Source: Serripes groenlandicus
Taxonomy: Eukaryota > Mollusca > Bivalvia > Cardiida > Cardiidae
Assembly: GCA_031761405.1 (NCBI GenBank)
Contig: JASEVX010000012.1
Span: 22,933,723-22,997,722, forward strand
Length of the DNA stretch: 64,000 nucleotides
Direction of reading: 5' to 3'
This document shows, piece after piece, positions 1,131-58,100 of this stretch. The translations under genes and the position numbers were made by a program. The notes beneath the pieces were generated by a model. That model had not been told where the DNA came from. It did no database searches and was given only the letters and a program-made list of their open reading frames with translations. The number at the start of each line of letters is the position of its first letter. Within the stretch, counting starts at the first letter, position 1.

Positions 1131-4100
1131 GTAAGTATATAACTTATTTTGCTCTTTATATTCCCTCAATAAGTGGTATCCTTTAAGATGTGGCCAATGG
1201 TCACACAAAATGCATCAAATTCAACCCTTTCCCATTTACAACGAATCTGCATTAGATGACATTAGATGACAGTGAAATATTTAGGCAAAAATATGGAAAT
1301 TGTCTATAAATTAAAGTTCTTTTAGCTATTCCGAGAATATGTGAGCTATGGTACTCACCCTGGCGTCAGTGTTTGTGTCACACCTTGGTTAGGGTTTTTC
1401 ATGCAAGTATATTAAGAGCCCATATTTCAGTAACTACTTTATGCATTGCACAGTTATTGCACTGAAACTTGATATAAACCTTCCAAGCCATCACACCTAT
1501 GTATATAATCAATTTAGTTAACTCTGTCATGCATATAATGCAAATGAGGTATAGTCAAGCCATTGTTAATGAAAAGAGTTGAAAACATTGTCGAAAAATG
1601 AAAAACATGCACAGAATGACACAATTTTTCTAAAAGTGTTTAAGGCAGATGCATCAAAATACTTCCGCATCTTGGAACGGTTAACTGTAAATCAATTGTC
1701 CCAAATGGCCAATCAACAGGTACGGTAATCAAATTCTTTATAACAATCATGTTTCAAAACTTGACATGACTCTGTATGCCACTTGTAACCCTTAACCTAC
1801 ATACAGACAGCTTCTTAAAACATTGTGGCAAAAGGAGCATAATATAAGGAGCTTATAATGAGCAATTTTTAACCAGGTTTTCCAAAGGAAAAATCTGGTT
1901 ATTAGTTTGGCGAAGTCGGCGGGCGGGCGTCAACTTTCCTTGTCCAGACCATAACTTTGCCATGCATAGAGATATTTTCAAATAACTTGGCACAAACATG
2001 CACCATATCAAGACGATGTGCCAAATGCAAAAAGAAATTCTGTATATTCAAGGTCAAGGTCACAGTGATAAGAAATAGACTTTAATTGAAATTTTCTTGT
2101 CCGGACCATAACTTTGTCATGCATAGAGATATTTTCAAATAACTTGGCACAAACATGCACCATAGCAAGACGATGTGCCAAATGCAAAACTTTTGTCTGT
2201 AGCTTCAAGGTCAAGGTCACAGTGACAACAAATAGACATCAGTTGAACTTTTCTTGTCCGGACAATAACTTTTTCATCCATAGAGATATTTTCAAATAGC
2301 TTGGAACAGATATACACCATATCAAGATGCTGTGTCATATGCACAATTTATGTGTTTAGCTTCCAGGTCAAGGTCACAGTGACAGAAAATATACTTTACT
2401 AGAACTTTTTTTGTTCAGACCATAACTTTACCATGCATATAGATATTTTCAATTTTTTTTTTTTGTGAATAATCAAATCTATAAAATTCTATAAGCAAAC
2501 ACAGCAGACCCTGATCAGACAGCTCCTACAGAAGCTGTCTGATCTGGATCTGAGGTCATGAAACTTACTCAATTTGAGCATGTTAACATAATTATTATGT
2601 CTCCCCCTGTATACAGGGGAGATATATTGTTTTTGTCCTTGGCGTCTGTCTGTCTGTCTGTCCTTCTGTCTGTCCGTCTGTCCGAAATCGTGTCCGCTCC
2701 ATATCTCCAAGACGGCTTGAAGGATTTTCATGAAACTTGGCTCACATGTTCACCTCATCAAGGCGACGTGCAGAACCCGCGTCTCGACAATATAGGGTCA
2801 AGGTCAAGGTCACGCTTGAAGGTCAAAGGTTTGAGGCTTTATTTCGTGTCCGCTCCATATCTCCCAGACGGCTTGAAGGATTTTCATGAAACTTGGGTCA
2901 CATGTTCACCTCATCAAGGCGACGTGCAGAACCCGCGTCTCGACAATATAGGGTCAAGGTCAAGGTCACACTTGAAGGTCAAAGGTTTGAGGCTTTATTT
3001 CGTGTCCGCTCCATATCTCCGAGACGGCTTGAAGGATTTTCATGAAACTTGGGTCACATGTTCACCTCATCAAGGCGACGTGCAGAACCTGCGTCTCGAC
3101 AATATAGGGTCAAGGTCAAGGTCACGCTTGAATGTCAAAGGTTTGAGGCTTTATTTCGTGTCCGCTCCATATCTCCCACACGGCTTGAAGGATTTTCATG
3201 AAACTTGGGTCACATGTTTACCTCATCAAGGCGACGTGCAGAACCCGCGTCTCGACAATATAGGGTCAATGTCAAGGTCACGCTTGAAGGTCAAAGGTTT
3301 GAGGCTTTATTTCGTGTCCGCTCCATATCTGTCCCAAATTTATAGGTTGGAATGTTTTGAGAGATTTTGACAGATATTTGAGGGGAGACATCTGTTTTTT
3401 GCAAAAACAATTCTAGTTACTATTGTAGTTTACACTTAGATTACAAGGCTAGGAAATTGGCTGGTTGCAAAGTAGATTTCAGTTACAAACTAAAAGTAGA
3501 TTTTTTTTTTTCCAAACTTTGTCCTCAAGCTAACAGAGCTTTTTTAGTTTGAGCATCATGCTCAAACTAAAAATGCTTTGTAACCATGGCGACAAACTCC
3601 AAACATGGATTTTATTCTCATCGTTGGTTTGTAATTTCACCCTATTTTGCAATGAGCATATTTCATAAACTTGTAACTCAAGCATCTAACTTCAACAACA
3701 ATATTTCCATTACATTCTCAAATTGAGTAAGTTTCATAACCTCGGGCCCTGGATCTAGTCTGTTTGTTGCATAAACGTGTTACTATCAAGTAAAGGGTTA
3801 AGGCAGATCACTGATTATCAACCTGGCATTAGGGATCCTAAAATGTGGCTGCTTACAACAAAAGGTTGCTTAATATCTGTTATCTATTATATGTTCTTAA
3901 TAAATGAGGCCATCAACACACGATTGACTGTATTGAACTGATATTTGTTAGATAAAATTGTGATATATTTAATTGACAAAGTAATTATGATTATTCATCA
4001 ATAGAAATATTCCCTGTTACTTGAATTACTAGCTTTGATTAACTATTAACAGAAAGATTTGACAGATCTGTTAATTCTTAATCAAACAACTTCCATTATA

Positions 4101-11791: not shown

Positions 11792-12661
11792 ATTATACTA
11801 AATAAAATGTTTTCAATAACGTAACCACACCTTTATCATGTGGGAATGCATAGAACTCCCATAGTTTAATGATGTGTCGTCCTTGTTCAGTTATGTTACT
11901 TTATGGTATTCATTTACAATAGTTGAACTATTAAATTTTTGTATTTTATTTGCCTGTGATATTTGCGACGTAAAATGTCTGTATAAAATTAAAGATGATA
12001 CTGCACCGTTTGCAGTTTTGGTATTATTGCAAATGTTATAAGTTGTCAACAAAATTATATGCTCCAAATAAGTAGCCACACTTTTGTCAAACAACATTGG
12101 CCAGAGATCGAATCAACGACCTCCCGCTCAAGAGACTGACGATTTATCACAATACCACCGAGGCGGTTTGATAAAGACGGACAACGCTCACGGGAATGTC
12201 ATATCACTGTGTTTAAATCAGCCTTTAACACATTTTCAGTTATATCATGGCGCTTCCTGGGATACCAGTTACCAGTACTACCGGTCCATTTTTTCAGACA
12301 CCAGCCAGTCAGTCGTGATGCTAACCCAATAATCCTGAGCGTCAAAGACGGCAGCCATTACTACCATTTTTAAAGTCTTTGGTATGATCAAGCCGGGAAT
12401 CGAACCCACTACATCTCCGAGGCGGTTTGTTCAAAACAGACAACTCTAACAGTGTCTTTTACTCGACTTTCAAGAACTTTTCAGTTATATCACTGCGTTT
12501 CCTGAGTAGGTTACCAGTACTACTGGTCCATTTTTCCTGACACAAGCGAATCGGTGTTATTCAATAATCCTGAGAGTCCAGGAGGTAAAGCCATGACTGC
12601 CATTTTTAAAGTGTTTGGGTATATGTGTGAAAGAGTTAATGATATGCTCTTGTAATACTTC

Positions 12662-12835
12662 TGTAACGGGAACGGGGTATATGTATAAATATCACTTTTA
12701 CGGCCTTGTCGTAGACGTCGGCTTTTATAGCGATGTTGCTAAAGTGGTTAACCTTGTATTAAGGTTAGGCAACGCTCTTCGCGGTTAGTGCCTGGATGGG
12801 TAATCCGCGATGGCTTAACTCCGGTACACGTAACA
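12662..12835 (+). repeat. TRIM 5' LTR
   Basis: 174 bp, TGTAACGGGA to ACGTAACA. The 5S-like control region is at 12761-12806: AAGGTTAGGCAACG (A-box-like) and GGTTAGTGCCTGGATGGGTA (C-box-like). Confidence 0.8.
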
Positions 12836-12837
12836 AA

Positions 12838-12856
12838 TGGTGGCAGCGGTGGGATT
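12838..12856 (+). promoter_or_regulatory. TRIM primer-binding site, complementary to a tRNA-Leu-like 3' end
   Basis: TGGTGGCAGCGGTGGGAT begins 2 nt after the LTR. It is complementary to a tRNA end reading ATCCCACCGCTGCCACCA, a common tRNA-Leu acceptor sequence. Confidence 0.75.
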
Positions 12857-12965
12857 TTGGATTGACATCACCATCATCCTCGGACCCCGGTTGTTCCCAG
12901 TGATGTTACATAGACTCTGCTCTGGTATACTGCTTATTTTCAGTTGTGTGACTTTGGGTCGAAGT

Positions 12966-12984
12966 CAAGAGAAAGAGGAAGAAA
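12966..12984 (+). promoter_or_regulatory. TRIM polypurine tract
   Basis: AAGAGAAAGAGGAAGAAA, all purine, ends directly at the TG of the second LTR: the usual plus-strand primer position. Confidence 0.75.
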
Positions 12985-13155
12985 TGTAACGGGACAGTGG
13001 TTATTTAAAAATAACTTCTAAAGCCTTGTCGTAGAAGCCGGCTTTTATAGCGACGTTGGTAGAGTGGTTAACCTTGTATTAAAGTTGAGCAACGCTCATC
13101 GCGGTTAGTACCTGGATGGGTGACCCGCGATGGCTTAACTCCGGTACACGTTACA
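12985..13155 (+). repeat. TRIM 3' LTR with well-kept 5S-like promoter
   Basis: 171 bp. The 5S-like part at 13082-13125 has AAGTTGAGCAACG and GGTTAGTACCTGGATGGGTG. These match the 5S rRNA internal control region (AAGTTAAGCAACG; GGTTAGTACTTGGATGGGTG) with one difference each and similar spacing. The rest of the 5S gene is absent. Confidence 0.8.
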
Positions 13156-13194
13156 CTTCCATACTGAAATAGTAGAATATAAAAATAATTGATT

Positions 13195-13490
13195 GATTGA
13201 TTGATTGTGGTTTAACGCCGTTTTCAACAACTTTTCAGTCATATCACAGAGGCCAGTTCACCTACTCATATGTTTCCTGGTTTCCTCACACCAGTATCCC
13301 ACACAACATACTCTCCAAGCAACTGGCTGCTTTTCCACATAGGCTGTTATCCCATTGGTGAATGACGCTTGTCACAGTGACTTTTGTCAAACGTCGAAAA
13401 GAATGTTGGCCAAGCTGGGGTTCGAACACACAACCCCTGGATTGACAACCCGCGTTGCTACCCACTGATCTACCGGGGTTCGGCAATATA
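13195..13490 (-). repeat. tRNA-derived SINE copy (family S2, reverse orientation)
   Basis: Read on the minus strand: a tRNA-like head with TGGGTAGCAACGCGGGTTG and a GGGTTGTGTGTTCGAACC B box, then ACAAAAGTCACTGTGACAAG and GTGGAAAAGCAGCCAGTTGC, and a tail with AAACGGCGTTAAACC and (CAAT)n. Other S2 copies: 32055-32345 (-), 36935-37195 (+), 42155-42430 (-), 45597-45845 (+). Confidence 0.65.
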
Positions 13491-14313: not shown

Positions 14314-16867
14314 CAAGAGTCCCAAGAGGGCCAGTATCGCTCCACTGCCATTATGCAAAAATTAAATCTCCAAGCAGCCAGCCCTCTGGCGGCCATGTTT
14401 TTTTTAACAATCAACATGGCTTGAAGGAATCTGATAAAGGGTCACCCTAGGAACATTTGAAAATCGGCCCGACACTTTCGGAGAAGAAGATTTTTTAAGT
14501 TTTCACTTTAGTCATATTAGGCCAAATAGACCCGCCCCGTGGTGTCCATTGTTTTCGACCAATTAACATGAATTGAAGGAATCTGATGGAGGGTCACTCT
14601 AAGAACATTTCTACACAATTATTTGAAAATCAGTCGGACAGTTTCGGAGGAGAAGACTTTTTAAGTGTTCTCTACAGCCATACAAGAGAAAGTTGATGCA
14701 ACGCATCAATGTCGCCGGATATCTATAGTGCAGTTATGCATCACACTAACATTATAGTAGTTGAATAAACAGTTATCAACTGCGGGGCATATTGGAACAT
14801 CAGGGGTGGGGTCAAGTGAAACTGTATCATAACTTGCATTGTTTTGTCAACGAAGTGAATGATAATTGAAGCCTTCCATTGTTTATGATCAATCTCCATT
14901 CCAAAGTAGGTTGACCATACACACAACCAACTAATTATTGATCATAAACAGTAATGGAAATAAGTAATCTTGCCAATCATCAGTCTTAGTATGTATACAG
15001 TGCTTTCATTAAGGAATAATTATAATATTTATGAATTCCACATACACTTTTCAAGATGTTTGTCAGAATATTTGAATTTTATTATTTTTCAATAAAACCA
15101 CAAAACAGACAATTTAGGATTTGCATGCAATAGCACCTCATTTTACATTTCCTCTATTAAAGTCAACAGTAGACACATTTGCAGCAATCTACTTTTAAAA
15201 CAATGAGATAAGGGTTAAATCGCTGAAGACATGAGTTTTCTCTTTTTCTCAAAATGATATTAGCTTGGCATCCTAATTATATCATACTTTAACAAATGTT
15301 GAAATGTAGTCCAATATTTATAAATTAGACCACCTTCGAAATATAATATCAACTAAACAGTTAAATCTCATTAAAATTGTTGTATAATTTAAACTTAATT
15401 TCGAACATAAACTGAGCCCTACAACATGTTAATTTATTTTAATTATTTCCTTCCTTTTTTATAATAAAAATAACAAACTACTCATGTTTTAAAATTATAT
15501 TATGATGAGCGCCCTTGTGTCAATGATGCATAACAATATGCAGATCGGAAGCAATATGCCTTTAGGGAATTAAATGACACATTTAAAATTGTCAAGGACG
15601 AAATAATTTTGTACGAAGACCCGATTCTTTCTTATTCGCAGAGGTGTCGTTCTTTAAACTCTCTTTATAGGCAGAGAGTGTTCGTTCAAAGTAATTTTTC
15701 TATTAAAACAAGTTTTATTTTGGTTTGTTCTTTTCTTCATTTGTTTCGAACCAAATAAACATTTTAAATCGCCTATGATTTTACTATTTGTAAGTGAGTG
15801 TAAAGAGCGGCTCTCTGCAAAGGAGATTGATCTACGCAGTTGGTATTCGCGAGTATGTAAACATATTAGACTGTGCGACGTAAAGGTTTGTAGTTATCGC
15901 CTTTTGATTACATGTAGTATATAGTGTAAAATAAAGTATACCAGTATAGCTAATAGGGACTGTTTTGTCTTCGTAAATAAAACAAAAAAACATAAATGCG
16001 AGTCAAAATAAAGAAACTGAAAATACCTAAAACATCGGAATATTTATTTTATTTTAGATGTGTCATTACTTAGTGTTTTTAAACAAACACAATTGTAATA
16101 TGTTCAAGACATCTAAATGTGTTTCTTTCTAATAATAATCCCCCCTCCCATGTCATTTCCGAAAACCTATTAAAACTAGAAGTCGCGGGCTTCTGCCCGG
16201 CGACTAATAAGGCGGAATAGCCCCGCCCTCTGGCGGCCATGTATTTCGACCGATCAACATGGCTTGAAGGAATCTGATAGAGGGTCTCCCAAGGAAATTT
16301 CTACAAAATTATTTGAAAATTGGCCAAATTCTTTCGGAGGAGAAGATTTTTTAAGTTTTCACTATAGACATATAATGCAAAATAGCCCCGCCCCCTGGCG
16401 GCATGTTTTTCGACCAATCAACTTGGCTTCAAGGAATCTGATAGAGGGTCACCCAAGGAACATTTTTACAAAATTATTTGAAAATAGGCCTGCCACTTTC
16501 GGAGGAGAAGATTGTTTTAAGTTTTCACTATAATTAACCATATAAGGCAAAATAGCACCGCCCTCTGACGGCCATGTTTTTCGACCAATCAACATGGCTT
16601 GAAGGAATCTGATAAAGGCGCGCCAAAGGAACATTTCTACAAAATTATTTGAAAATCGGCCAGAATTTTGCATGGATCTAACAAATATGAAGGAATTTAG
16701 AAGAGGACATTGAGGGGATGCTTTCTATGAAGTTTCGTCCCAAATGGCCAAGCGGTTAGAAGGAGAAGTCGTTTGAAGCTACCAGTTTACGCACACACGC
16801 ACGACAACTCGACAGACAATTTGCCATAACATAAGCTCGACTGGCTTTTCAGCCAGTGGAGCTTATT
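14314..16867 (-). mobile_element. AGCTCC-headed rolling-circle-like element, minus strand, split by a nested insertion
   Basis: Read on the minus strand it starts at about 16867 with AGCTCCACTGGCTGAAAAGC (hairpin) and a GTGCGTGTGTGCG stretch. It continues through monomers with CCATGTTGATTGGTCGAAAA and AAATTATTTGAAAAT words, and ends at 14314 with GGCCCTCTTGGGACTCTTG before T. The insertion at 14683-16207 interrupts it; the two flanks rejoin as CCATA/TAAGGC, a sequence kept intact in other copies. Confidence 0.6.
14683..16207 (-). mobile_element. TTAGTCGCC-headed element, copy A (minus strand)
   Basis: The head at 16207 reads TTAGTCGCCGGGCAGAAGCC with a perfect hairpin; the tail at 14683 reads ATTGATGCGTTGCATCAAC (hairpin), TTTCTCTTG. 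The insertion falls between A and T. 1.5 kb with no conserved ORF. It is homologous to, and inverted relative to, copy B at 20300-22006, though the middles differ. Confidence 0.6.
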
Positions 16868-25500: not shown

Positions 25501-28500
25501 GTATTTCAAACAGATTTCTTTCATTTCCCCATAACTCATTAACTGCAGTGCATAGTGTCATCCTCTTGCGGTGACATCGATATATCTGTCACAGTGTATG
25601 CATATGCTTGTGTCTGTCAGCAGTTCTCATTACTTGTGTTATATTATGAGTACAAGTATCCGCCGTGGTCGAGTGGTTAGCGTCAGGGATTTGAAACCTG
25701 ATGTCACAGGTTCAATCCCCAGTCGCTGCACATTTTCTAGCCTTTTTCGTGATATAACTGAAATAATGTTGAAAACGGCTTAAACCCCCAAATAAAACAC
25801 TTAAATACTTTGAGTTTTGAGTACTTAAGCAAAATGGTCAGTACGAGTACTTTCTGTGTACTCTATTAGTACTTCCACACATGATAATGATGAGTGTAAA
25901 ACATTAATTCATATTAACAACAAATAGGACAGGCTTTTGTAGAAATACCGAACTGTAATCTACAGTACAATCAACCAGTATCTTTTGTATTGTAAATGTA
26001 AACAGATACCTGTATACAAATTATGCATAGTGATAATAGCAATCAATTATTGGATTATCACTTTTTCAAACAGGCATATTTTATTTTCACAAATTGGTGA
26101 ATAGAGTCATACTTTAATTGGTGTTTTAGCTAAAGCAAGCTTACAGAACTTGATTTGTAGACCACTTTGTAGTTTCATTTGTAAATATGAACTTTAATGT
26201 ATCAGACTATCAGTCATGTCAAAACAGGGACAATATAATACACGGTTCCTGGTCAAAATAAGCTGATTTCTGAAAGCCACTGCAGCAGACGGCTTTTAAA
26301 AACAGCAATTTTCTCTTTTGTCAAAATAGTTTAAACTTTTTTCAGAAAATATATCTTCATAGAGATTTTCTGTGATTTTGCCTAGATCTTTTCAAAGTCG
26401 TCTGCTGCAAATTTGCTTTATGTGGGAAGGCTTAAATGTTTGACAAATTGACGGAAATACAAACATTTGTGAATTTTTGAAAATTCTTCAAATTGCAGGA
26501 GTTGAGTGTCACTTAGTATGTTGATGATTACTAGTGAGCTTAAAGTAAGTAACTTACCAGGAAACTATGCGATATAATCAGAAAATTGTTAAAGGCTGCA
26601 TAAACACAATATCAAAATGTGTACAAAATGTGTACAACACACACCTGATCAGAAACGGTTTAAAAAGTCGAAACATCTTACTTTTGATTGGTGGAAACTA
26701 ACTTTTAATGTTAAATACTGTTCATTATTTTCAGAGTCCTATGAAAGTGATGAGTACTTCAGATGTTGTTTTGAATCACTTGGAGAAATAGATGGGGAAA
26801 TAGATGGGAAAAACCATGAGGGGAAAAACACAGATGGTTCTGACTATGCTGATGAGTACTACATAATTCTGGACAGAGTGTATGAGGATTTCACTCATCC
26901 TGCTGTGAGTGAGTCTCATTACACGAGTTTGAAAAATGTCTGCAAATCTGATCTACAAGCTTACAGAGAATTTTGTTGTTTGACAACCTCATCAATGTTA
27001 CAGTACATTCAGTGCTATGAGTCAACTTATAATCCTGTGGTTAAGACATGTGTTACAATTGACAAACACTTTTGTGTAAATGTGTCCGTACATGGTAAAC
27101 ATGTGAATAAGAGCCATGAACTCTGGGGTTTGATTCCACGTATTTGCTTCACAGTAGAACATGTACAGTCAGCTTTGAATGTTATCTTGGCTTACAGCGT
27201 CTGTCCTGGGAATCAAGATGAACAGTTTCAAGGCCTTGTTCCTGCCAGATCATTTCTGGATTCAGCAGATGATGACAGGGCAGGTTATCAGGAAAGAATT
27301 GTAGTGTCAACAGTAAGGAGTTCAAATTGCTCACTTCTAATTAAAAATTCTAGGTGTAAATGCTGCTGTACATACCGTAGAACACTAACAAAGTCTTTAT
27401 GGCGACAAAAGGAGAGGGTTGCTACACCTAAGAGGGATTGGCTCAATTCAAAAATGGGAAACAAATCAATGTCAGCCTCACAAAAAACTGAAAAGCTGAG
27501 ACAGTTGAAAACATATACCAATTCACTGAAAAGTGAAAATGCAAAGCTACAGAGGCAGTTAAAAAAACACATACACAAATATGGAGTTAAGTTATCTGAA
27601 CGTGATAGTGTAGAAATGAATCGGATCATGTCAGAATCTGAAGAAACCATCAGAACTGTATATCCAGATCAAAACTCAATACAAAGACTATTTTGGGAAC
27701 AGCAGCTTAAACAGTCTAAACTGCAAAATAAAAAGAACATGAAATGGCACCCAATGATTTTGAAGTGGTGTATTTACTTGAAAAGTAAATCTTCGTCAAC
27801 ATATGATGCTCTCCGAAAGACTGGCTTCATACATCTTCCCAGTGAACGGACTCTTTATGACTATTCACATGTGCTTTCCAAAGGTGTAGGATTTCAAGAT
27901 GACGTTATTTGTCATCTTCAACAGGAAGTCGAACCCTACTCCGAGGAACATCAAAAGATAGTTGGAATCCTTCAAGATGAAATTAAGATCAAGAGTGACT
28001 TGGTGTACGATAAACACTCAGGAGAGTTGGTAGGCTTTGTTGACCTAGATACCATTGGAAATGAGATACGCAACATAGACCAGTGTCTAAAAAAAGAAGG
28101 AAACACCTTGGCTAAATATGTTCTAGTAATAATGGTTCAGGGAATGTCGACTAAACTGAAATACCCTCTAGCCCACTTCGCAACAAATGGAGTTTTGTCA
28201 GATCAGCTTTTCACTATACTTTGGAAGGCTGTTGAAATCCTTGAGATAGATGTTGGCCTGACAGTACTGTTCATCACTAGCGATGGAGCTTCCCCAAATA
28301 GGCGGTTTATAAGATTACATGGGCAAGGAAACGATACCGTGTACAGAGCTCAAAATATTTTTGCCAGTGAACCCCGTTACATATATTTCATTTCTGATCC
28401 TCCTCATCTAATCAAAACAACAAGGAATAATTTTTCAAATTCATTTTCGCACAAGAAGTCCAAAAAATTGTGGAAAAATGGCCAAGACATTTCATGGATG

Positions 28501-29172
28501 AGTATTGTTAGACTTTATGATGAAACATGCTCTGGGGTTTATAGACTTTGCCCAAAACTGTCACGGAACCATGTTGACTTGAAGTCATTTAATTATATGA
28601 AGGTGAATTTGGCAGCTCAAGTTATGAGCTCAACAGTAGCCAATGCTCTTGAAATAACTTATGGTGGTCAATATGCAGAAACAGTTAAATTTATCCGCCA
28701 TATGGACAAATTCTTTGATATCATGAACACAAGAAATTTTGGTGAGTCAATCAGAAAAAGAAATGACAATGTAAAACCATTTGTAGATATTGAAGATGAA
28801 AGGTTAGTTTACTTGAATGAAGAATTTCTAGAGTATTTTGAGGACTGGGATCGAGAGATTTTTACGCGGCCAGGAAACTTTAAAAAGTCGGAAAGAAATA
28901 TGATGAAACTCAGTTATCAAACATTGGAAGGACTAAAGTTTACAGTTAAATCTGTGACGGAATGCATCAAGTTTTGTTTAAAAAGTGGAATGCCATTCGT
29001 TCTCACAGATAAGTTTAATCAGGATGCTATTGAGCAGCATTTTGGAATGCACAGAGCAAGCTGTGGTTCTAATACAAATCCAACATTAGAATTTAGATCA
29101 ATTCAACTGTTCCCTTCAAAAACAGAGAATTGTTGGATCACAAGCATTGGCTCCTATGCGAGGAAATACTAA
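25383..29172 (+). CDS. P-element/THAP9-like transposase, two coding exons
   Basis: Exons 25383-25500 and 26735-29172 join in phase (one base plus two) to 851 residues. The start ATG has an in-frame TAA 21 bp before it. Order: a short basic N-terminus (HRKRIGRRKRTKK), a Cys-rich middle (RCKCCCTYRR, about residue 246), a coiled coil (KLRQLKTYTNSLKSENAKLQ), then the RNase-H-like core: LVGFVDLD (Asp476), SDGASPNR (Asp556), FISDPPHLIK (Asp594, His597), NQDAIEQHFG (Glu806). This is the acidic and DPxH pattern of P-element transposases (family knowledge). They cut DNA in the nucleus and use GTP as cofactor. No THAP zinc finger is visible. From about 29087 the frame is broken (see the next entry but two), so the annotated C-terminus is probably wrong. 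Confidence 0.8.
25663..25795 (+). repeat. tRNA-headed SINE copy (Ser/Leu-like head)
   Basis: CCGTGGTCGAGTGGTTAGCG (A box) and CACAGGTTCAATCCCCAG (B box) are in tRNA-like spacing. The body reads GATATAACTGAAATAATGTT. There is no closed cloverleaf with a matching 3' end, so it is a SINE, not a tRNA gene. It sits in the transposase intron. Confidence 0.65.
26226..26246 (+). repeat. internal copy of the transposon right-terminus motif
   Basis: CAGGGACAATATAATACACG resembles the right terminus CAGGGACAATATATACAGGG. It lies in the transposase intron; it could be an internal binding site or a decayed scar. Confidence 0.35.
26735..29172 (+). CDS. transposase exon 3 (catalytic core)
   Basis: Acceptor TTATTTTCAG at 26725-26734. 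The same frame is open upstream to 26617, but that part (CTKCVQHTPDQ) lies before the acceptor and is probably intron. All catalytic motifs are in this exon. Confidence 0.75.
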
Positions 29173-30451: not shown

Positions 30452-31464
30452 CTAATTACTACTAGATTTTTCCTTCAGGACTGCTCGGAGAGCCTTTTTG
30501 TTGTTTATGTCTGTTATTGCTGTAGTTTTAAATTTCCGGGCCCAGGCATGTCCTCTTACAGTCAGGAATAGGTTGACACATTTCTCTAAGAAAAACTCTG
30601 CATATTCTCCAGATATTATTTTTTGAAGATAATGACGTACCAGGACGTTAGACATTACTTTTTCAACTAAGACAGCCTTGTTCAGAGTATCTTTACCAAC
30701 ATGAGTCTCGTCAATTCCTTCACGGCAGATGTTTTCAAACTGTCTTACGAGTAAGAAAAAATTGTCACTTGCAAACTTTAACCCACCGCGATTCACTTTT
30801 TCAGTCCATTCATTGTATTTAGTGACAAAGGTTTTTTCACTGTTGTTTTCATTGCGCATTGCATTTTCAATTGCCTCATGAAAGGCTTCTTGTATTGATA
30901 AATTTTTCTCTTTCGCACATTTTCTTGCAAGAACATTCATCAAATATCCACTTATATAATAGAGAACTTGCTGATCATTATGGGAAATGTTAATCTCACA
31001 GTTTTCCTTCTTTTCTTCATATGAGTTAGACTTGTTTTTCACTATTACATTCATTAGGCCATGACACAGAACACCATAAAACTGCCTAGTCTTAATGGAT
31101 ATTGGTTGAACTATATCGCTGAAGGCAGACAGAGTATCTTGATCTGCTGATAGGCTATATAAGTTTGAAAATAGCACTTCATTGTCAAAGTCTGCTGTAG
31201 CATCAACCTCCTCCATGATGTTCTTAAATTGTGGCAGTAATAGAGACTGAACCTTCTCATATATATGTGAGCTTGCTAAAATTCCTTCCGAAATATCAAT
31301 AATGTTTTTACCATGAACTGATGACGTCTTTCTTAGTGAATTGCTGCTGATAATTTCTAAGCTTGTACCTAATGCACTGTGAAAGTTTTTATCAAAATCA
31401 CTGTCCACTTGAAATGGTCTTGCATTCAAATGTTCAGAGGGGGACTTTATTCTGTAGTCTGAAA
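30452..31464 (-). CDS. accessory gene exon 2
   Basis: 1013 nt, open throughout, stop TAG at 30454-30452. The frame runs above the TTG at 31429 up to the acceptor (SDYRIKSPSEHLNARPFQ), so 31429 is not the start. Confidence 0.65.
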
Positions 31465-32751
31465 CTGTAAATATATCCAGTTTAAATAAATGTGTATATA
31501 TGTATATTACTATCCCAATTTAGCAGTAGCCTACTTTGAAAACACACAGAGGTCACCAATGTTTTCAACACTATTCAAGACTTACACTTGAATGTATACA
31601 GGTTTCCCATATTTTTTCAAAGTTGTTTGTTGTAAATTTGTTGTAGTGGGAAAGGGTTAAGTTAAGCAGAGGTATAGATAAAGCGCGTTTTGCATGTTCT
31701 AAAATCCTTATTTGACCATCAAACCCTATGTTGTTGGTGCTTAGACGATGATTTTGAGTACTACAACATATGGCTTGCTTTGTCAATACCAGATAAAATA
31801 TGGGGAAAGAGCTCCTTATCTGGACCTGGTTAGTGTTAAGAAATTATAAAATAATATTTTAAGAATTGTTTGAAATGATTGCTGGGAAACAACTGTGAGC
31901 AACTTTATAAAATTTAGCTTTAATATAATGATTATTGTGAAGAATATATTGGAACCTTTTCTCATTGAGAGGTATTTATCTAAGGATTACCTTGCAAATT
32001 ATAAATAAAAGTATGTCACTGTATACTGTATGGGTTATTTCTTGTCCTGGTGTTAAGTATATTGATTGATTTGGGTTTAACGCTGTTTTCAACAAATTTT
32101 CAGTCATATCACACAGCCAATTCACCTATTCATGTGTTTCCTGTTTTCTCACACCAGTTATCCACAAAACAATCCTTCCAAGCTACTGGCTGCTTTTCCA
32201 CATATACGGTTAGACCACGAATGACGCTTGTCACAATGACTATTGTCAAATTGGCCGAGCTGGGGTTCGAACTCACAAACCCTGGATTGACAGGCTGTGT
32301 CGCTACCGACTGCGCTATCGGGGCTCGGCTGGTGTTATATATAAGTTTATGAATTGAATCAGCAGTTAGTTGTAAGGCTTGATTTACCTTGAATGAATCC
32401 TATCCTGCTATTAGTTATGATTCTACATTTGCAACCGGAAGTGTAGATCATGCACTCTGATCAACATCTGCTGTCTTTGCTTTTAAGTTTTACCAAGAAA
32501 AAAAAGCATTTACCTCGTATATTGGTTGCGCCATGTTTTGCTTTTAAATGTCCTCGTATTCCTGACATGGATACATATTTCTTGTCACAGCTGTCACAAG
32601 TATACACATAAGTTTTATCCTGCTTTAATTTTTTACACTTTGGCAGTCCCTCATTATCGGAACATTCAATGTCACTACAAGTATATTCTCCAAGCAAAGT
32701 TTCTAAATCAAGATCATGAAAATTAATGAAGTCGTGTTTACTGTAAGCCAT
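30452..32751 (-). CDS. C2H2 zinc-finger accessory protein of the P-type transposon, two exons
   Basis: Exon 1 (32751-32514) ends G/GTAAAT; exon 2 (31464-30452) follows TTTACAG. The phases match (1+2), giving about 416 residues. The N-terminus is acidic. One C2H2 finger lies at about residues 51-75 (CDSC, 12 residues, H, 4 residues, H). The C-terminal two thirds is helical, with LYYISGYLMNVLARKC, VNRGGLKFASDNFFLLV and a LTVRGHAWARKFK end. The YISGY and RGGL pattern resembles tails I associate with THAP9-like and other transposon proteins (weak recollection). The gene converges on the transposase and lies inside the same inverted repeats, so a role in end binding or regulation is plausible but inferred. 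No catalytic motif is seen. Confidence 0.65.
32514..32751 (-). CDS. accessory gene exon 1 with C2H2 finger
   Basis: ATG at 32751, 79 codons plus one base. It encodes MAYSKHDFINFHDLDLETLL, the acidic CSDIECSDNEG, and the finger TCDSCDKKYVSMSGIRGHLK. Reading on into the intron gives FFFLVKLKSKDS, which is not protein-like. Confidence 0.65.
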
Positions 32752-46130: not shown

Positions 46131-49100
46131 ATAAAAAGACGAAGTCCGAGTGAACCTATGTATACCAGTTTCTCTGTATTGCTTATTTTGATATCAGTGT
46201 TTCATAACTATGTATCTTAAACTATCCTTTATATCTTTTCTGACAGGTTTATGAAAGGACAGAATAAGTTTCCACAATAATAAAAGTGAAAACACTCTGC
46301 CTTTTTAACTGTAATTCCACAAAAACTAATAAATCCAGTGTTTAAACGGCATATCCTATTTAGTAGAGTGGAGTCATGGGCTGGGGTGGAGTGGAATGGA
46401 TTTTTGAAGTATAAAATATAAAGTGACCATTCACATTTCTTCCTCCTTTTTTTTTTATTTATTTTAATAAGGTTCTCCACTTATATAATATAACAGTCAT
46501 AGTACTGCCATTGTAGGTCTAGTTAAAAATAATTGATAATTTTACCATCAATATTTTTGCTAGCGAACAATACTTTACAGAATAAACAATATATACATGT
46601 ATTTATGTTGGTGCAATAAAGCAATATTGTAATAAAAGGTCTGATTACCTTATATTTTGTTTGTAATTAAAAGTTCAAAAAGATAAACCACAGAGATATA
46701 ACATGTTAAAACTCACTGTGCCCATGAAATAACTGTTCTAACTTAACCCTCCAAGAGAGTATTTAATGTCCTAAGATAATGAGGCATTGATGACATGTTA
46801 GATCTGCCATCCAGTTTAACTCCCAACGGGATTCATTATCTCCCATAAAGTAACATACAGATGACTAGGCTTCAGCCAACTGGTACAAGAAAATGTAAAA
46901 TGTACAAGTAAGTGGTATCTACTCCACATTTAAACTTCCAGTTTGCAAAAGTAAGTATCAAATAATAAATTTGATTTCCACTCCAAAACTAGACTCCACT
47001 CCTCCACTCTACTAAATAGGATATGCCTGTTTAAACTGGGTTGGCTTGCTTTGTTATAATATGGTATAAATAGTGGTTGTTTTCATAAAATTGTGAATTT
47101 AAATATTACAGCTATGTAACTTAATAATAAGCTGTTGTCTGTTTGAAGGCTTGCATTACTAGCTACGATCATCGTCAGTTTGAGTAGCAGGGGATACGGT
47201 TTGAGATTTAGATGTGGGCGATATGGACCCTAATTCTAGAGGATTGATTCAGTTAAAACTGTTTCCATGCTTGGTCCTGGTGAAGGTTCTGTACGCAGCT
47301 CAGTATCATGGCTAGTGTCCAATTTTGCTTTACCAATTAAAAAATCGATCATTTTATAGCCTTTTTCAGGCGCTGATGGTAGTTTTTTCTGATAATATTT
47401 ATTATTTCTCAACATTGTCAAATCGTTTTTATCGTAATCATCTAGACGCTTTAGTTATAAATGCATGCGTCTTCAATAAGTAATTTTGTTCTCATTTATC
47501 TGCCGGCGCGGTTAACGTTATCATCATGTTAACATCATAGACAGCTATTGCAACGATTAAATAAATCATATTGAACATTAAATTGAGTCTAAACAATATG
47601 CAGCTTAACATTTAAATACATGAAAGTCCAATTCACATCGGCGAAAAATTTCGTCAGACGCCATGTTTTTTCTTAAAAACACGTGGTTAAGTCGACAAGA
47701 CGAAACGGGTAAAAATAAATAAACGAAATATCACCCAACTCCCAATACTTATTGTATGAAGAAGAAATATAATTACTTCGTTAAATATTTGTTTCGGATA
47801 AATAATTGCGACACCTGAATGGATATGTCACTGAGAAATGTTGCGATTTGTTTTAAAATGTAAACAACAGAGACAGGCCGAGAATGTTTTTGATTTTGTC
47901 AGAAAAGCAAGTTACAAAGTTAAAATTAGGCTAGACGGCCAGAATTGTAAATGGGTCTGTCGGACTCTTTTGGCCAGAATTGTGAATGTCTCCGACGGAC
48001 CCTTTTGGAAAATTGTGAAGAGCCGTTTTTAATTGTGAATGGGTCCGTTAAACGGTACCAGCTAAAGAAGGAAAAAAATCGCCGGTCAACATTTCTCAAT
48101 TTTAATTGCCAGCAGCGTTGATAATGCTGGCGAGTAGGAGATGCGCAAACATTTTGTTGTTATCTGACAACAATACGACATCGCGGCTTCCGGTACGGTT
48201 TAAATCGCGGATCGCCCGGAACCGGTCGCCTTTTTATTCCCTTTTTTTTTTTTTGGTCCGTAAAAAAGTTTCGGTCGGCGGTAAAAATGGACGGTCGGTC
48301 GGGTTACCAGAAACAAACCTATTTTTTTTTTAGGCCTGAAAGCCAGTCGAGCTTATGTCATGGCGAATTGTCCGTCGTGCGTCCGTGCGTGCGTGCGTTA
48401 ACTTTTTCCTTTAAACGACTTCTTCTCCCTAACCACTTGGCCAATTTGGTTGAAACTTCATGGGAAGCATCCTCTCAATGTCCTCTACTAAATTCCTTCA
48501 AATTTTTTTGATCCATTCAAAATTCTGGTTTCCATGGCAACCGAAAGAAAAAAATAGTGAGAACTTAAAAAATCTTCTTCTCCGAAAGTGTCAGGCCGAT
48601 TTTCAAATAATTTTGTAGAAATGTTCCTTGGGTGACCCTTTATTAGATTCCTTCAAGAAATTTTGATTGGGCGAAAAACATGGCCGCCAGGCGGCGGGGC
48701 TTTTTTGCCTTATATAGCTATAGTGAAAACTTAAATAATCTTCTTCTCAAAAAGTGTTCAGCAGATTTTCAAATAATTATGTAGAAATGTTCCGTGGGTG
48801 ACCCTCTATCAGATTCCTTCAAGCCATGTTGATTGGTAAAAAAACATGGCCGTCACAGGGCGGGGCTATTTTGCCTATATGGCTAAAGAGCAAACTTAAA
48901 AAATCTTCTCCTCCAAAAGTGTCAGGCCGATTTTCAAATAATTTTGTAAAAATGTTCCTTGTGTGAACCTTAATTAGATTCCTTCAAGAAATGTTGATTG
49001 GGCGAAAAACATGGCCGCCAGGGGGCGGGGCTTTTTTGCGTTATATAGCTATAGTGAAAACTTAAAACATCTTCTCCGAAAGTGTTCAGCCGATTTTCAA

Positions 49101-52100
49101 ATAATTTTGTAGAAATGTTCATTGGGTGACCCTCTATCAGATTCCTTCAAGCCATGTTGATTGGTCGAAAAACATGGCCGCCAGAGGGCGGGGCTATTTT
49201 GACTTATATGACCATAGTGAAAACTTAAAAAATCTTCTCCTCCGAAAGTGTCAGGCATATTTTCAAATAATTTTGCAGAAACATTCCTTTGGTGACACTC
49301 TACAAGATTCCTTTAAGCCATGGTGGTTGGTAAAAAAAATAGCCACCACGGGGCAGGGCTGTTTGGAGATTTTATTTTTGCCTTATGGCCGTGGAGCGAT
49401 ACTGGCCCTCTTGGGCCTCTTGTTTTTGATCCATCCATAATTCTGGTTTCCATGGCAACCAAAAGAAAAAAATAGTGAAAACTTAAATATCTTCTTCTCT
49501 GAAAGTGTCAGGCCGATTTTCAAATAATTTTGTAGAAATGTTCCTTGGGTGACCCTGTATTAGATTCCTTCAAGAAATGTTGATTGGTCGAAAAACATGG
49601 TCGCTAGAGGGCGGGGCTATTTTGCCTTATATGACCATAGTGAAAACTTAAAAAATCTTCTTCTCCGAAAGTGTTCAGCCGATTTTCAAATAATTTTGTA
49701 GAAATGTTCATTGGGTAACCCTCTATCAGATTCCTTCAAGCCATGTTGATTGGTCGAAAAATATGGCCGCCAGAGGGCGGGGCTATTTTGCTCTATATGA
49801 CCATAGTGAAAATTTAAAAAATCTTCTTCTCCGAAAGTGTTGAGCAGATTTTCAAATAATTTTGTAGAAATGTTCTTTGGGTGACCCTCTATCAGATTCC
49901 TTCAAGCCATGTTGATTGGTTCAAAAATATGGCCGCCATGGGGTGGGGCTATTTTGCCTTATATGGCTATTGTGAAAACTTAAAAAATCTTCTCCTTCGA
50001 AAGTGTCAGGCCGATTTTCAAATAATTTTGCAGAAACATTCCTTGGGTGACACTCTACAAGATTCCTTTAAGCCATGGTGGTTGGTAAAAAATATGGCCA
50101 CTAGGGGGCAGGGCTGTTTGGAGATTTGATTTTTGCCTTATGGCCGTGGAGCGTTACTGGCCCTCTTGGGCCTCTTGTTTTTTGAATACGACGTTAAGCC
50201 CAAATCAATTAATCAAAATAACAAATATTAACATTGTTTACATAGCTAAAGGTTACATGAAATGATGTTCTCTTCATTTTTAGCTCCACTGGCTGAAAGC
50301 CAGTCGAGCTTATGTCATGGCGAATTGTCCGTCGTGCGTGCGTGCGTAAACTTTTTCCTTTAAACGACTTCTTCTCCCTAACCACTTGGCCAATTTGGTT
50401 GAAACTTCATGGGAAGCATCCTCTCAATGTCCTCTAATAAATTCCTTCAAATTTTTTTGATCCATTGGAAATTCTGGTTTCCATGGCAACCGAAAGAAAA
50501 AAATAGTGAGAACTTAAAAAAATCTTCTTCTCCAAAAGTGTCAGGCCGATTTTCGAATAATTTTGTAGAAATGTTCCTTGGGTGACTCATTATTAGATTC
50601 CTTCAAGAAATGTCGATTGGTTGAAAAACATGGCCGCCAGGGGGGCGGGGCTATTTTGCCTTATATTGCAATAGTGAAAACTTAAAAAATCTTCTTCTCC
50701 GAAAGTGTTCAGCTGATTTTCAAATAATTTTGTAGAAATGTTCCTTGGGTGACCCTCTATCAGATTCCTTCAAGAAATGTTGATTCGGCGAAAAACATGG
50801 CCGCCAGGGGGGCGGGGCTATTTTGCCTTTCATAGCTATAGTGAAAACTTAAAAATCTTCTTCTCCGAAAGTGTTCAGCTGATTTTCAAATAATTTTGTA
50901 GAAATGTTTATTGGGTGACCCTCTATCAGATTCCTTAAAGCCGTGTTGATTGGTCGAAAAACATGGCCGCCAGAGGGCGGGGCTATTTTGCCTTATATGA
51001 CCATAGTGAAAACTTAAAAAATCTTCTTCTCCGAAAGTGTTCAGCCGATTTTCAAATAATTTTGTAGAAATGTTCATTGGGTGACCCTCTATCAGATTCC
51101 TTCAAGCCATGTTGATTGGTCGAAAAACATGGCAGCCAGAGGGCGGGGCTATTTTGCCTTATATGACCATAGTGAAAACTTAAAAAATCTTCTCCTCCGA
51201 AAGTGTTTGGCCGATATTCAAATAATTTTGTAGAAATGTTCCTAGGCTTACCCTCTATTAGATTCCTTCAAGCCATGTTGATTGGTTGAAAAATATGGCT
51301 GCCAGGGGGTGGGGCTATTTTGCCTTATATGGCTATAGTGAAAACTTAAAATATCCTCTCCTCCGAAAGTGTCAGGCCGATTTTCAAATAATTTTGCAGA
51401 AACATTCCTTGCATGACACTCTACAAGATTCCTTTAAGCCATGGTGGTTGGTAAAAAAATAGCCACCAGGGGGCAGGGCTGTTTGGAGATTTTATTTTTG
51501 CCTTATGGCCGTGGAGCGATACTGGCCCTCTTGGGCCTCTTGTCAATAATTTTGTAGAAATGTTCCTAGGGTGACCCTCTATCAGATTCCTTCAAGCCAA
51601 AATTGGTCATAAAATCATGGCAATCAGGGGTCAGGGCTGTTTGGATATTTAATTTTTGCCTAATGGCAGTGGAGCGATATTGGGCCTCTTGTTACCTAGC
51701 TAAATTAGTTCAGTTTCTACAGTAAATTAAAAAGACACTTTTTTTTTTCAAAGTCTTATTTTTAATACTAATATTTTTGCACTTATGTTGATATTTAAGT
51801 AAAAATCCTTGTTAAAACAACAAGTCATAATGGTCATACAAAGCAATATCTATTCAAAGATAGAACAAAGCCAAATTTAAGAAAAAATCGAAAAAAAAAC
51901 GCATTTTTGGCTTGAGCATGTTGACACTTTGTCAGAATATTTGTCTTGATGATATCTAGGGTAAGTTTGAATATGGGTCAGGTCAGGTCAACAACTAGGT
52001 CACTAGGCCAAATTGTAGAACAATCTAGTTAACACTTAAAAGCGTTTTTGACATGAGCAGCTTGAAATGTTGTCAGAAAGTTTGTTTTGATGATATTGCC

Positions 52101-55100: not shown

Positions 55101-58100
55101 TGTAAGGGTTTTGAATTTACAGGTGTACCATCCTCGACGACTTCAATATTGATTGCGAATTCCTTTGGTATGAAGATTCCCCCTCCAGAATATTCGGGCA
55201 TCCCTGAACCTTTAGTGGAGCCAGACCTAGATCTTGTCATAAGTAAGTACACTTTTAGCTGTATTGAGGGCTCTGAGTCGATTCTTTTAAATCTTGCATA
55301 GTCTAAATTAGCAATAGCAAGTAGCGAATTAACTACTTAAAATGGGAACTATCTACCTGCCAACAAAGTCAGTAGAAGAAACTTGCTACTTAAAAAAAAC
55401 CACTTTGTCACATCTCTGCAAATATATGGAAAATAACAAAGTAGAATTTATAATTAGACTTGAAAACATTGTGGCAAAAGAAGAACTTGCTTAATGGATT
55501 CCTAATAACTTCCAATACAATTAGGCACAAAAAAGGTAGGTAAAAAATATGTTTTCTACACTGATTGATGTGAAAGTGACTAAGTTGAACTTACCACATT
55601 TTTTGTAATGGTCGAACAGTCTGTTCTGAAAATATCTGAATTCTTTCAAATTTGCATGATTTATGATGTGTGTTAATTGTTTGTAAAAAGGATACTATAC
55701 CTATTTGAAACAGTGTAAGAGCCCTTTCCCACACACAACAAACCTGCAGCAGATAATATTGAAATCATCAATGCACAACCATAAAATTATCTCCATAAAT
55801 GGAAGTACAGTGTATAAGCATTGAATAGAGGTGAACACATATTGACAAAAGGACAAATTGCTAGTATTGAGCAATTTCTCTTTTTTAGCTCTACTGGCCA
55901 AAGGCCAGAAGGGCTTATGTCGTGGCGATTTGTCCGTCGTCCGTGCGTGCGTCCGTGCCTCCGTCCGTAAACAATTTCTTGTTAACACGATACAGTCTTC
56001 ACTTTTGATTGTATCTCAACCAAACTTATACAGTAGTTAGATATTCATGAGAGCTCGGTTCCTTTCGAAAACAAGCCAGATCTGCCCATGCATGACTGGA
56101 TTATGGCCCTTGAAATGGTCAAAATTGCTATAAAAGAGCTTGTTAACACGATACAGTCTTCACTTTTGATTGTATCTCAACCAAACTTATACAGTAGTTA
56201 GATATCCATGAGAGCTCGGTTCCTTTCGAAAACCAGCCAGATCCGCCCATGCATGACTGGATTATGACCCTTGAAATGGTCAAAATTGCTATAAAAGAGC
56301 TTGTTAACACGATACAGTCTTCACTTTTGAGTGTATCTCAACCAAACTTATACAGTAGTTAGATATCCATGAGAGCTCGGTTCCTTTCGAAAACCAGCCA
56401 GATCCGCCCATGCATGACTGGATTATGACCCTTGAAATGGTCAGAATTGCTATAAAAGAGCTTGTTAACACGATACAGTCATCACTTTTGATTGTATCTC
56501 AACTAAACTTATACAGTAGTTAGATATCCATGAGAGCTCAGTTCCTTTCGTAAACCAGCCAGATCCGCCCATGCAAGACTGGATTATGGCCCTTGAAATT
56601 GTCCAAATTGCTATAATTGAGCATGTGAACACAATAGAGGCTCCATTTACTATCTGATCTTCACCAAACTTAGATAGTAGTTAAATATTGATGAGAGCTT
56701 GGTTCCTTTTGAAAATCAGCCAGATCCGCCCATGCAAGACTGGATTATGGTCCATGAAATTGTAAAAATTGCTATAATACAGCTTGTAAACACAAAAGAG
56801 CCTCCATTTACTATCCGATCTTCACCATACATACATGCTCTGGATTGAAAATGACCAAAGAACCATACTAGTAGAGCATAGGCCCTCATGGGCCTCTTGT
56901 TTTCCACAATGTTTTCAAAAGCCCTCTGCTGTACAGGTGTCAGAGAGCATATATATTTGGGCAGGGTTAATTAATTTAGAAAAATCTGCAGTTTCTGTGA
57001 TCAGCTCATTCACTGTATCAAATTTAACTATCAAATGTACAAAATTGCAGTTTCAATATTCTTACCATGAGGTCGAGGGTATAAAGGGATCTGCCTGTGC
57101 ATACATGTCCTAGCAACTTCATATCTTAACTCATTTTCATGAAACTTCTCACACATGTTCACTAGCATTGTCTCTTGTACAAGTTCACTATTAAACTTCT
57201 GTACGAAACGACCAAATCACTGTAGCCAACTTGTTCATTATCCGATTGTGATTAAACTTGACTCATATGTTCACCAACTTCGTCTCTTGTAAAATTTCGC
57301 GTCTCACCAACCTGGGTAAAGGTCACAGACTATAAAAGTCTTGTTAAAAACAATGTCATCGCTCTAGCGACTTTATTTCTTATCTGATTGTTATGAAACA
57401 GGATACACCTGTTAGCCAGCATCACCTTTCGCATAAGTTCACATTTCACTGACCTTGGTCAAAGGTCAAGGTCACAGTGACTTGTACGTTACAATGTCTT
57501 CACTCTAGCTACTTTATTTCTTGTCCGATTGTTGTGAAACTTAAAACACATGAGCACCAAAATGGCTTCTTGCATGAGTTTATGTTTCACCAACCTATGT
57601 CAAAGGTCAAGGTCACAGTGACTATTAAAAGTGTACAATTCAACATTGCTTTAATTTTTAGCTCCACTGGCGCTTATGTCATGGCGAATTGTCCGTCGTG
57701 CGTGCGTTAACTTTTTCCTTTAAACGACTTCTTCTCCCTAACCACTTGGTCAATTTGGTTGAAACTTCATGGGAAGCATCCTCTCAATGTCCTCTACTAA
57801 ATTCCTTCAAATTTTTTTGATCCATTCAAAATTCTGGTTTCCATGGCAACCGAAAGAAAAAAATAGTGAGAACTTAAAAAATCTTCCTCTCCGAAAGTGT
57901 CAGGCCGATTTTCAAATAATTTTGTAGAAATGTTCCTTGGGTGACCCTTTATTAGATTCCTTCAAGAAATTTTGATTGGGCGAAAAACATGGTCGCCAGG
58001 GGGCGGGCTTTTTTGCCTTATATAGCTATAGTGAAAACTTAAATAATCTTCTTCTCAAAAAGTGTTCAGCAGATTTTCAAATAATTATGTAGAAATGTTC

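Follow-up and report, generated by a model that had tools for sequence, protein, structure and literature searches.

A terminal-repeat retrotransposon in miniature with 5S-derived promoter boxes in its long terminal repeats in the bivalve Serripes groenlandicus

Why does a short retrotransposon in a bivalve carry parts of a 5S rRNA promoter in its long terminal repeats (LTRs), and is it related to the plant element Cassandra? The question is raised by a 494-bp element at positions 12662-13155 (+ strand) of a 64,000-nucleotide stretch of the Serripes groenlandicus genome (contig JASEVX010000012.1, positions 22,933,723 to 22,997,722). This whole stretch is called the window below. An earlier sequence-only reading of the window, made from the letters alone, had described the element as a Cassandra-like terminal-repeat retrotransposon in miniature (TRIM) in an animal genome. 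In this study, we believed that the element is a TRIM, that is, a non-autonomous LTR retrotransposon, whose LTRs have acquired a 5S internal promoter (boxes A and C), either directly or via a 5S-derived short interspersed element (SINE), and which would multiply through an RNA polymerase III (Pol III) cycle. We give this explanation a probability of about 0.7.

The anatomy of the element is that of a TRIM. It has short paired LTRs with TG..CA ends, a total length below 1000 bp, a primer site, a polypurine tract and target site duplications (Table 1). The sequence-only reading had listed the LTRs, a tRNA-Leu-type primer site, the polypurine tract, the flanking duplication and a 149-bp interior, and all of them were borne out. 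So short an interior leaves no coding capacity for gag-pol. The primer site is complementary at 18/18 positions to what we take to be the 3' end of an animal tRNA-Leu. The two LTRs are identical at 150 of 171 aligned bases (87.7%). The window holds this single element; blastn of the element against the window found no second copy, with matches of at most 22 nt only.

Table 1. Parts of the element and its flanks, in window coordinates
Feature	Position	Strand	Basis or remark
Left target site duplication CTTC (4 bp)	12658-12661	.	Flank comparison
5' LTR, TGTAAC...GTAACA, 174 bp	12662-12835	+
TATA-like word TATAAATA, 5' LTR	12684-12691	+	-30 from the 5S +1 equivalent (12714)
Box A-like word, 5' LTR	12762-12774	+	11/13 vs host 5S positions 49-61
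Box C-like stretch, 5' LTR	12782-12804	+	19/23 vs host 5S positions 69-91
Interior, 149 bp	12836-12984	+	No room for gag-pol
Putative primer binding site TGGTGGCAGCGGTGGGAT, tRNA-Leu type	12838-12855	+	2 bases after interior start
T-run adjoining the primer site	12855-12858	+	Possible Pol III terminator
Polypurine tract AAGAGAAAGAGGAAGAAA, 18 nt	12967-12984	+	Closes the interior
3' LTR, TGTAAC...GTTACA, 171 bp	12985-13155	+
AT-rich word TTTAAAAATA, 3' LTR	13004-13013	+	-30 from the 5S +1 equivalent (13034)
Box A-like word, 3' LTR	13082-13094	+	12/13 vs host 5S positions 49-61
Box C-like stretch, 3' LTR	13102-13124	+	22/23 vs host 5S positions 69-91
Right target site duplication CTTC (4 bp)	13156-13159	.	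Flank comparison

The promoter segment of the LTRs derives from 5S. Control regions of 5S genes have been described for a bivalve and for a crustacean (PMC6204057, PMC3215682). The 5S reference used here was the gene at locus L004, taken from the window's own genome; the search for host genes gave 35090 first-look candidates, to 47 of which the Rfam 5S model was applied, and 47/47 were over the cut-off. The sequence-only reading had reported 5S-type A-box and C-box words in proper spacing in each LTR and proposed aligning the LTRs with molluscan 5S rRNA. The alignment with the host gene agreed with this report. Both LTRs match boxes A and C ungapped and in the 5S register, and the likeness is restricted to gene positions 49-92, approximately 44 nt. 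The local alignment scores were 56 for the 3' LTR and 36 for the 5' LTR, against shuffle maxima of 28 and 31. Loss of the 5S similarity against shuffled controls had been named beforehand as a result that would count against the proposal, and the similarity was not lost: 0/5000 dinucleotide shuffles attained the score of either LTR (5000 per LTR). Under a second scoring scheme, none of the 2176 other window tiles attained the 5S score of either LTR. Among 46 distinct LTRs from loci selected by their interiors, the commonest base equals the host 5S base at 39/44 positions, in register (box A 13/13, the 7-nt spacer 3/7, box C 23/24), which gives agreement at 36/37 box positions.

These data bear on the view that the element is an ordinary TRIM whose words resemble 5S by accident, a view to which we give practically no credence. 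It could draw on the short matched stretch, on the Rfam 5S model, which made no call in the window at the gathering threshold nor in 12500-13300 at E up to 10, and on the weaker signal against a human 5S sequence, where 3/3000 shuffles attained the score of the 5' LTR (0/3000 for the 3' LTR). The shuffles and window tiles scored with the host 5S gene speak against it, and so does the agreement across the family; chance similarity was rejected on these grounds. A genuine 5S gene or pseudogene was also rejected, because 5S positions 1-46 are unrecognisable in the LTRs (15/46 in the 5' LTR, 13/46 in the 3' LTR), positions 98-120 have no match there, and the Rfam model made no call. A search of IMG/VR contigs with the exact promoter pattern returned 0 matches. 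The predicted fold of 13088-13140 was better than that of 200/200 shuffles, and larger LTR pieces were unremarkable, being equalled by 17 and 19 of 200 shuffles. A further word precedes the 5S part at 13056-13073 and 12736-12753 and reads TTGGTAGAGTGGTTAACC in the 3' LTR. This word resembles a tRNA box A, either as a vestige or by chance.

The layout of the host gene recurs in many LTRs of the family. In the host 5S units (L001-L008), position -30 is taken by TATAAATA or by a word that differs from it in one letter. The 45 distinct LTRs compared with them are a biased sample, since similarity to the 3' LTR of the window decided which loci were taken, and the TATA-like words to be tested were picked after the sequences had been seen. 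Counted from the 5S +1 equivalent, such a word lies precisely at -30 in 31/45 and at -29 or -31 in 3/45; 1/45 has no box A word. Both tested exact host box words occur in 23/45 LTRs, and in 22 of these 23 their spacing is 31 nt, as in the host.

The element belongs to a family of high copy number. The genome searched was the window's own (1.76 Gb, 1739 contigs). The 3' LTR as query gave 2029 first-look candidates; scoring of 40 of them yielded at least 43 matches, at 86-100% identity. For the interior as query there were at least 40 matches (40 of 2272 candidates scored). A promoter pattern of 35 places, in which 7 unspecified bases separate box A from part of box C, was searched for with at most 2 mismatches allowed and occurred 2507 times genome-wide (1381 forward, 1126 reverse), a count in which true 5S genes, 1-2 bases off the pattern, are included without separation of their share. 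The reversed control gave 0. The first 10 pattern places listed (one contig, zero mismatches), which are 9 distinct ones because a single element accounts for L043 and L044 with two of its LTRs, all lay in a family LTR, and 8/10 had an interior too. Tandem arrays of LTRs and interiors also occur, for example four LTRs at 325-bp spacing at L015.

Loci L009-L078 yielded 33 distinct complete chains, after exclusion of 33 truncated ones, 6 duplicates and 5 abutting a further interior. Absence of any other copy with paired LTRs was the second result named beforehand as counting against the proposal; many such copies were found, with 22 two-LTR copies among the 33 chains. Exact 4-bp target site duplications flank 15/33 complete chains, against approximately 0.13 expected by chance, one of the 15 (L041) being questionable on account of a right flank similar to the interior start; 5-bp duplications flank 0/33. 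The 4-bp duplications are distributed over solo LTRs (2/5), two-LTR copies (10/22) and longer arrays (3/6). Some of the 18 chains without a duplication are not clean and have element sequence in the flank (e.g. L020, L028, L031, L064). Identity within the 22 LTR pairs ranged from 85.2 to 98.6%, with L042 and L047 compared over 65 and 73 bases only. The highest identity of a full-length pair was 98.3% (L022), which indicates that younger copies exist. Only two of the 22 pairs are more diverged than that of the window copy; the two LTRs of the window copy group together in the tree with support of 93/86, slightly under the tool's mark for firm support. Across 57 distinct interiors, the primer site is identical over 18 nt in 26 and has at most 2 differences in 54. 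A purine-rich tract ends all 29 interiors listed, with a T interruption in some copies. At L045, the 3' LTR of one copy is immediately followed by an inverted piece (1571-1620). This piece begins with what is presumably a tRNA-Leu-like 3' end, running 2 bases past the primer site, and continues with the LTR end in reverse complement; it resembles a first-strand product that was integrated wrongly with primer tRNA sequence still attached.

The name Cassandra fits only in part. The claim of the sequence-only reading that a 5S segment stands in both LTRs of an animal TRIM holds, and its assignment to a Cassandra-like element does not extend to Cassandra itself. Cassandra carries most of the 5S gene, whereas approximately 44 nt of it are recognisable here. 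Both elements have a 5S-derived promoter in the LTRs and form tandem arrays, to judge from the accessible portions of PMC7215508. With the query words given there, the Cassandra box C matched 12/13 in the 3' LTR and 11/13 in the 5' LTR, and the best box A match was 10/12 in both LTRs, located outside the 5S box. Cassandra was rejected on the primer site, which agrees with Cassandra's TGGTATCAGAGC at only 8/12 (PMC7215508). The clam element differs further in its animal host and in its length of 494 bp, compared with 565-860 bp (PMC10886601, accessible portions). The sequence-only reading had known LTRs with 5S sequence from plants; they are not restricted to plants, since Ajax, a TRIM of two nemerteans, has been described, and its class has been named TRIMp3 (Kojima 2024, PMC10886601). 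The mark of the 5S type of TRIMp3 is the presence of 5S-derived promoter boxes within the LTRs, and the clam LTRs contain such boxes. The clam element is a new family of the TRIMp3 kind, provisionally kept apart from Ajax, and apparently the first such family from a mollusc. A literature search for a 5S-promoter TRIM in a mollusc, with Repbase, preprints and most subscription journals outside its coverage, found nothing further.

Three other groups share single traits with the clam family. The bivalve biv-TRIM elements also have solo repeats and tandem arrays; the accessible portions of their description give repeats of 202-218 bp, an inner domain of 77-80 bp, no clear primer site and a purine tract that is mostly GGGGAGA (Satovic et al. 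2019, PMC6934838). They were rejected by these lengths and by the diagnostic words of the same source: the repeat-end and primer words, the central TGATCCCAAAGGAC and the purine tract GGGGAGA matched no better than in 200 shuffles. Helenus, a TRIM with a tRNA promoter that is found in bivalves among other hosts, also has a Pol III-type promoter in its LTRs, and its animal members likewise have 4-bp duplications and are tied to Gypsy helpers through their primer sites (PMC10886601, section 3.6, as far as accessible). The clam LTR promoter is 5S-derived, whereas that of Helenus is tRNA-derived; Helenus was rejected because neither ARAGORN nor Rfam called a tRNA in the LTRs. The SINE3 elements, which are 5S-derived SINEs, share the 5S-derived internal promoter and have been proposed as the source of 5S-bearing LTRs (PMC10886601, accessible portions). 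Unlike SINE3, the clam element has paired LTRs, a primer site, a purine tract and 4-bp duplications.

The explanation that we prefer would work as follows. The host factors TFIIIA, TFIIIC and TFIIIB would bind the 5S-type promoter of the 5' LTR, aided by the TATA-like word at -30, and RNA would start near window position 12714. Pol III initiation is argued for by the 5S layout. On an RNA extending to the 3' LTR, tRNA-Leu would pair with the primer site near the start of the interior and prime reverse transcription, and the DNA would be completed from the polypurine tract. Insertion with 4-bp duplications would be carried out by the enzymes of an autonomous helper, probably of Gypsy type. The anatomy and the duplications show LTR-type retrotransposition with borrowed enzymes. 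Dispersed copies repeatedly have the two LTRs, the primer site, the purine tract and duplications of 4 bp. The Gypsy-type helper is our best guess because animal Helenus, likewise with 4-bp duplications, is tied to Gypsy helpers. According to the accessible portions of PMC10886601, the use of Pol III by animal elements still awaits experimental validation.

Several observations weigh against a Pol III cycle. No tested TATA-like word was present in 10/45 LTRs, and the TATA-like word could equally serve RNA polymerase II (Pol II). At non-CpG sites of the 46 LTRs, the variability of the boxes was 0.026 and 0.036, only slightly lower than upstream (0.049) and downstream (0.053), and 758/10000 permutations attained this difference; the excess conservation of the promoter boxes is suggestive only. 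Directly 3' of the primer site, 4-6 Ts follow in 53/57 distinct interiors and 3 Ts in the other 4/57. T-runs of such length are a Pol III stop signal, and the run could end much Pol III transcription before the interior. Given the T-run, either read-through would be common, or Pol III would make only a short RNA of LTR plus primer site, or Pol II would transcribe the element. The T-runs, the word at -30 and the weak excess conservation would all suit a family in which the 5S segment is a fossil, with inactive boxes and Pol II transcription from the TATA-like word, as in an ordinary TRIM. We consider this unlikely, because the commonest bases of the boxes are still host-like, in contrast to those of the spacer, and because the host spacing is kept in nearly all LTRs with both exact words. 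A variant that we regard as still more improbable combines the two polymerases: a mollusc LTR element would have captured the 5S promoter independently, following the captures in plants and nemerteans, and rebuilt the host layout, with the TATA-like word at -30 and the boxes in register. Most Pol III transcription would then end at the T-run and yield the short RNA, and full-length RNA would come from read-through or Pol II. If this were true, two polymerases would use the same LTR and make different RNAs from it.

The captured promoter of the preferred explanation must also be set against Ajax itself, for which the accessible portions of PMC10886601 report a partial 5S promoter with boxes A, IE (the intermediate element) and C in the LTRs, a tRNA-Leu primer site, a length of 421-434 bp, 5-bp duplications and far more LTRs than interiors. 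The clam family could be Ajax proper, through shared descent of nemertean and bivalve elements or through horizontal transfer, with no independent capture. We regard this as rather unlikely. The class is the same and the size is similar (494 bp here, approximately 0.4-0.5 kb for both). The 3' LTR has the same three boxes (12/13, 5/6 and 22/23 against 5S), and the primer site, compared here with a tRNA 3' end that we assume, is likewise of tRNA-Leu type. The solo LTRs of the clam family resemble the surplus LTRs of Ajax. The exact duplications, however, are 4 bp in the clam family and 5 bp in none of the 33 chains, whereas 5 bp are reported for Ajax, and the host group is different. The T-run after the primer site is a trait of the clam family that the accessible portions of the Ajax report do not mention.

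The window contains further features. A 156-bp tandem repeat occurs twice, at 2688-3330 and 58813-60073 (97% and 96% matches), with approximately 56 kb between the two places. The period is divisible by 3, and the repeat is traversed by open frames 275 and 457 codons long. Satellite-like arrays with a repeat of approximately 166-171 bp lie at 16207-16662, 48554-51484 and 57863-58675, the first seemingly on the opposite strand. An 859-codon open frame at 26593-29172 encodes TNP-like RNase H and GTP-binding domains (THAP9/P-element-type transposase). Its closest relatives with a name come mostly from bivalves (Mercenaria at 54% identity, Mytilus, Crassostrea, Dreissena and Ruditapes), with abalone and brittle star also among them; most of the 81 hits are unnamed. 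A 355-codon open frame on the - strand (30455-31519) was without a match in a Pfam scan. At 61075-63999, a 975-codon open frame, Pro/Gly-rich and then Ser/Arg-rich, runs past the window end. Pfam gave no match on its part 61198-63999, nor did a search with part of this host-like frame; the frame may belong to an exon of a host gene for an SR-type protein.

The finding widens the range of 5S-promoter TRIMs from plants and nemerteans to a bivalve. The 4-bp duplications, compared with the 5 bp of Ajax, point to a different helper integrase and perhaps to a separate origin. Many 5S-like pieces from such families may confound counts of 5S genes. As a large family with some young copies, the clam TRIM is a good test case for the use of Pol III by such LTRs.
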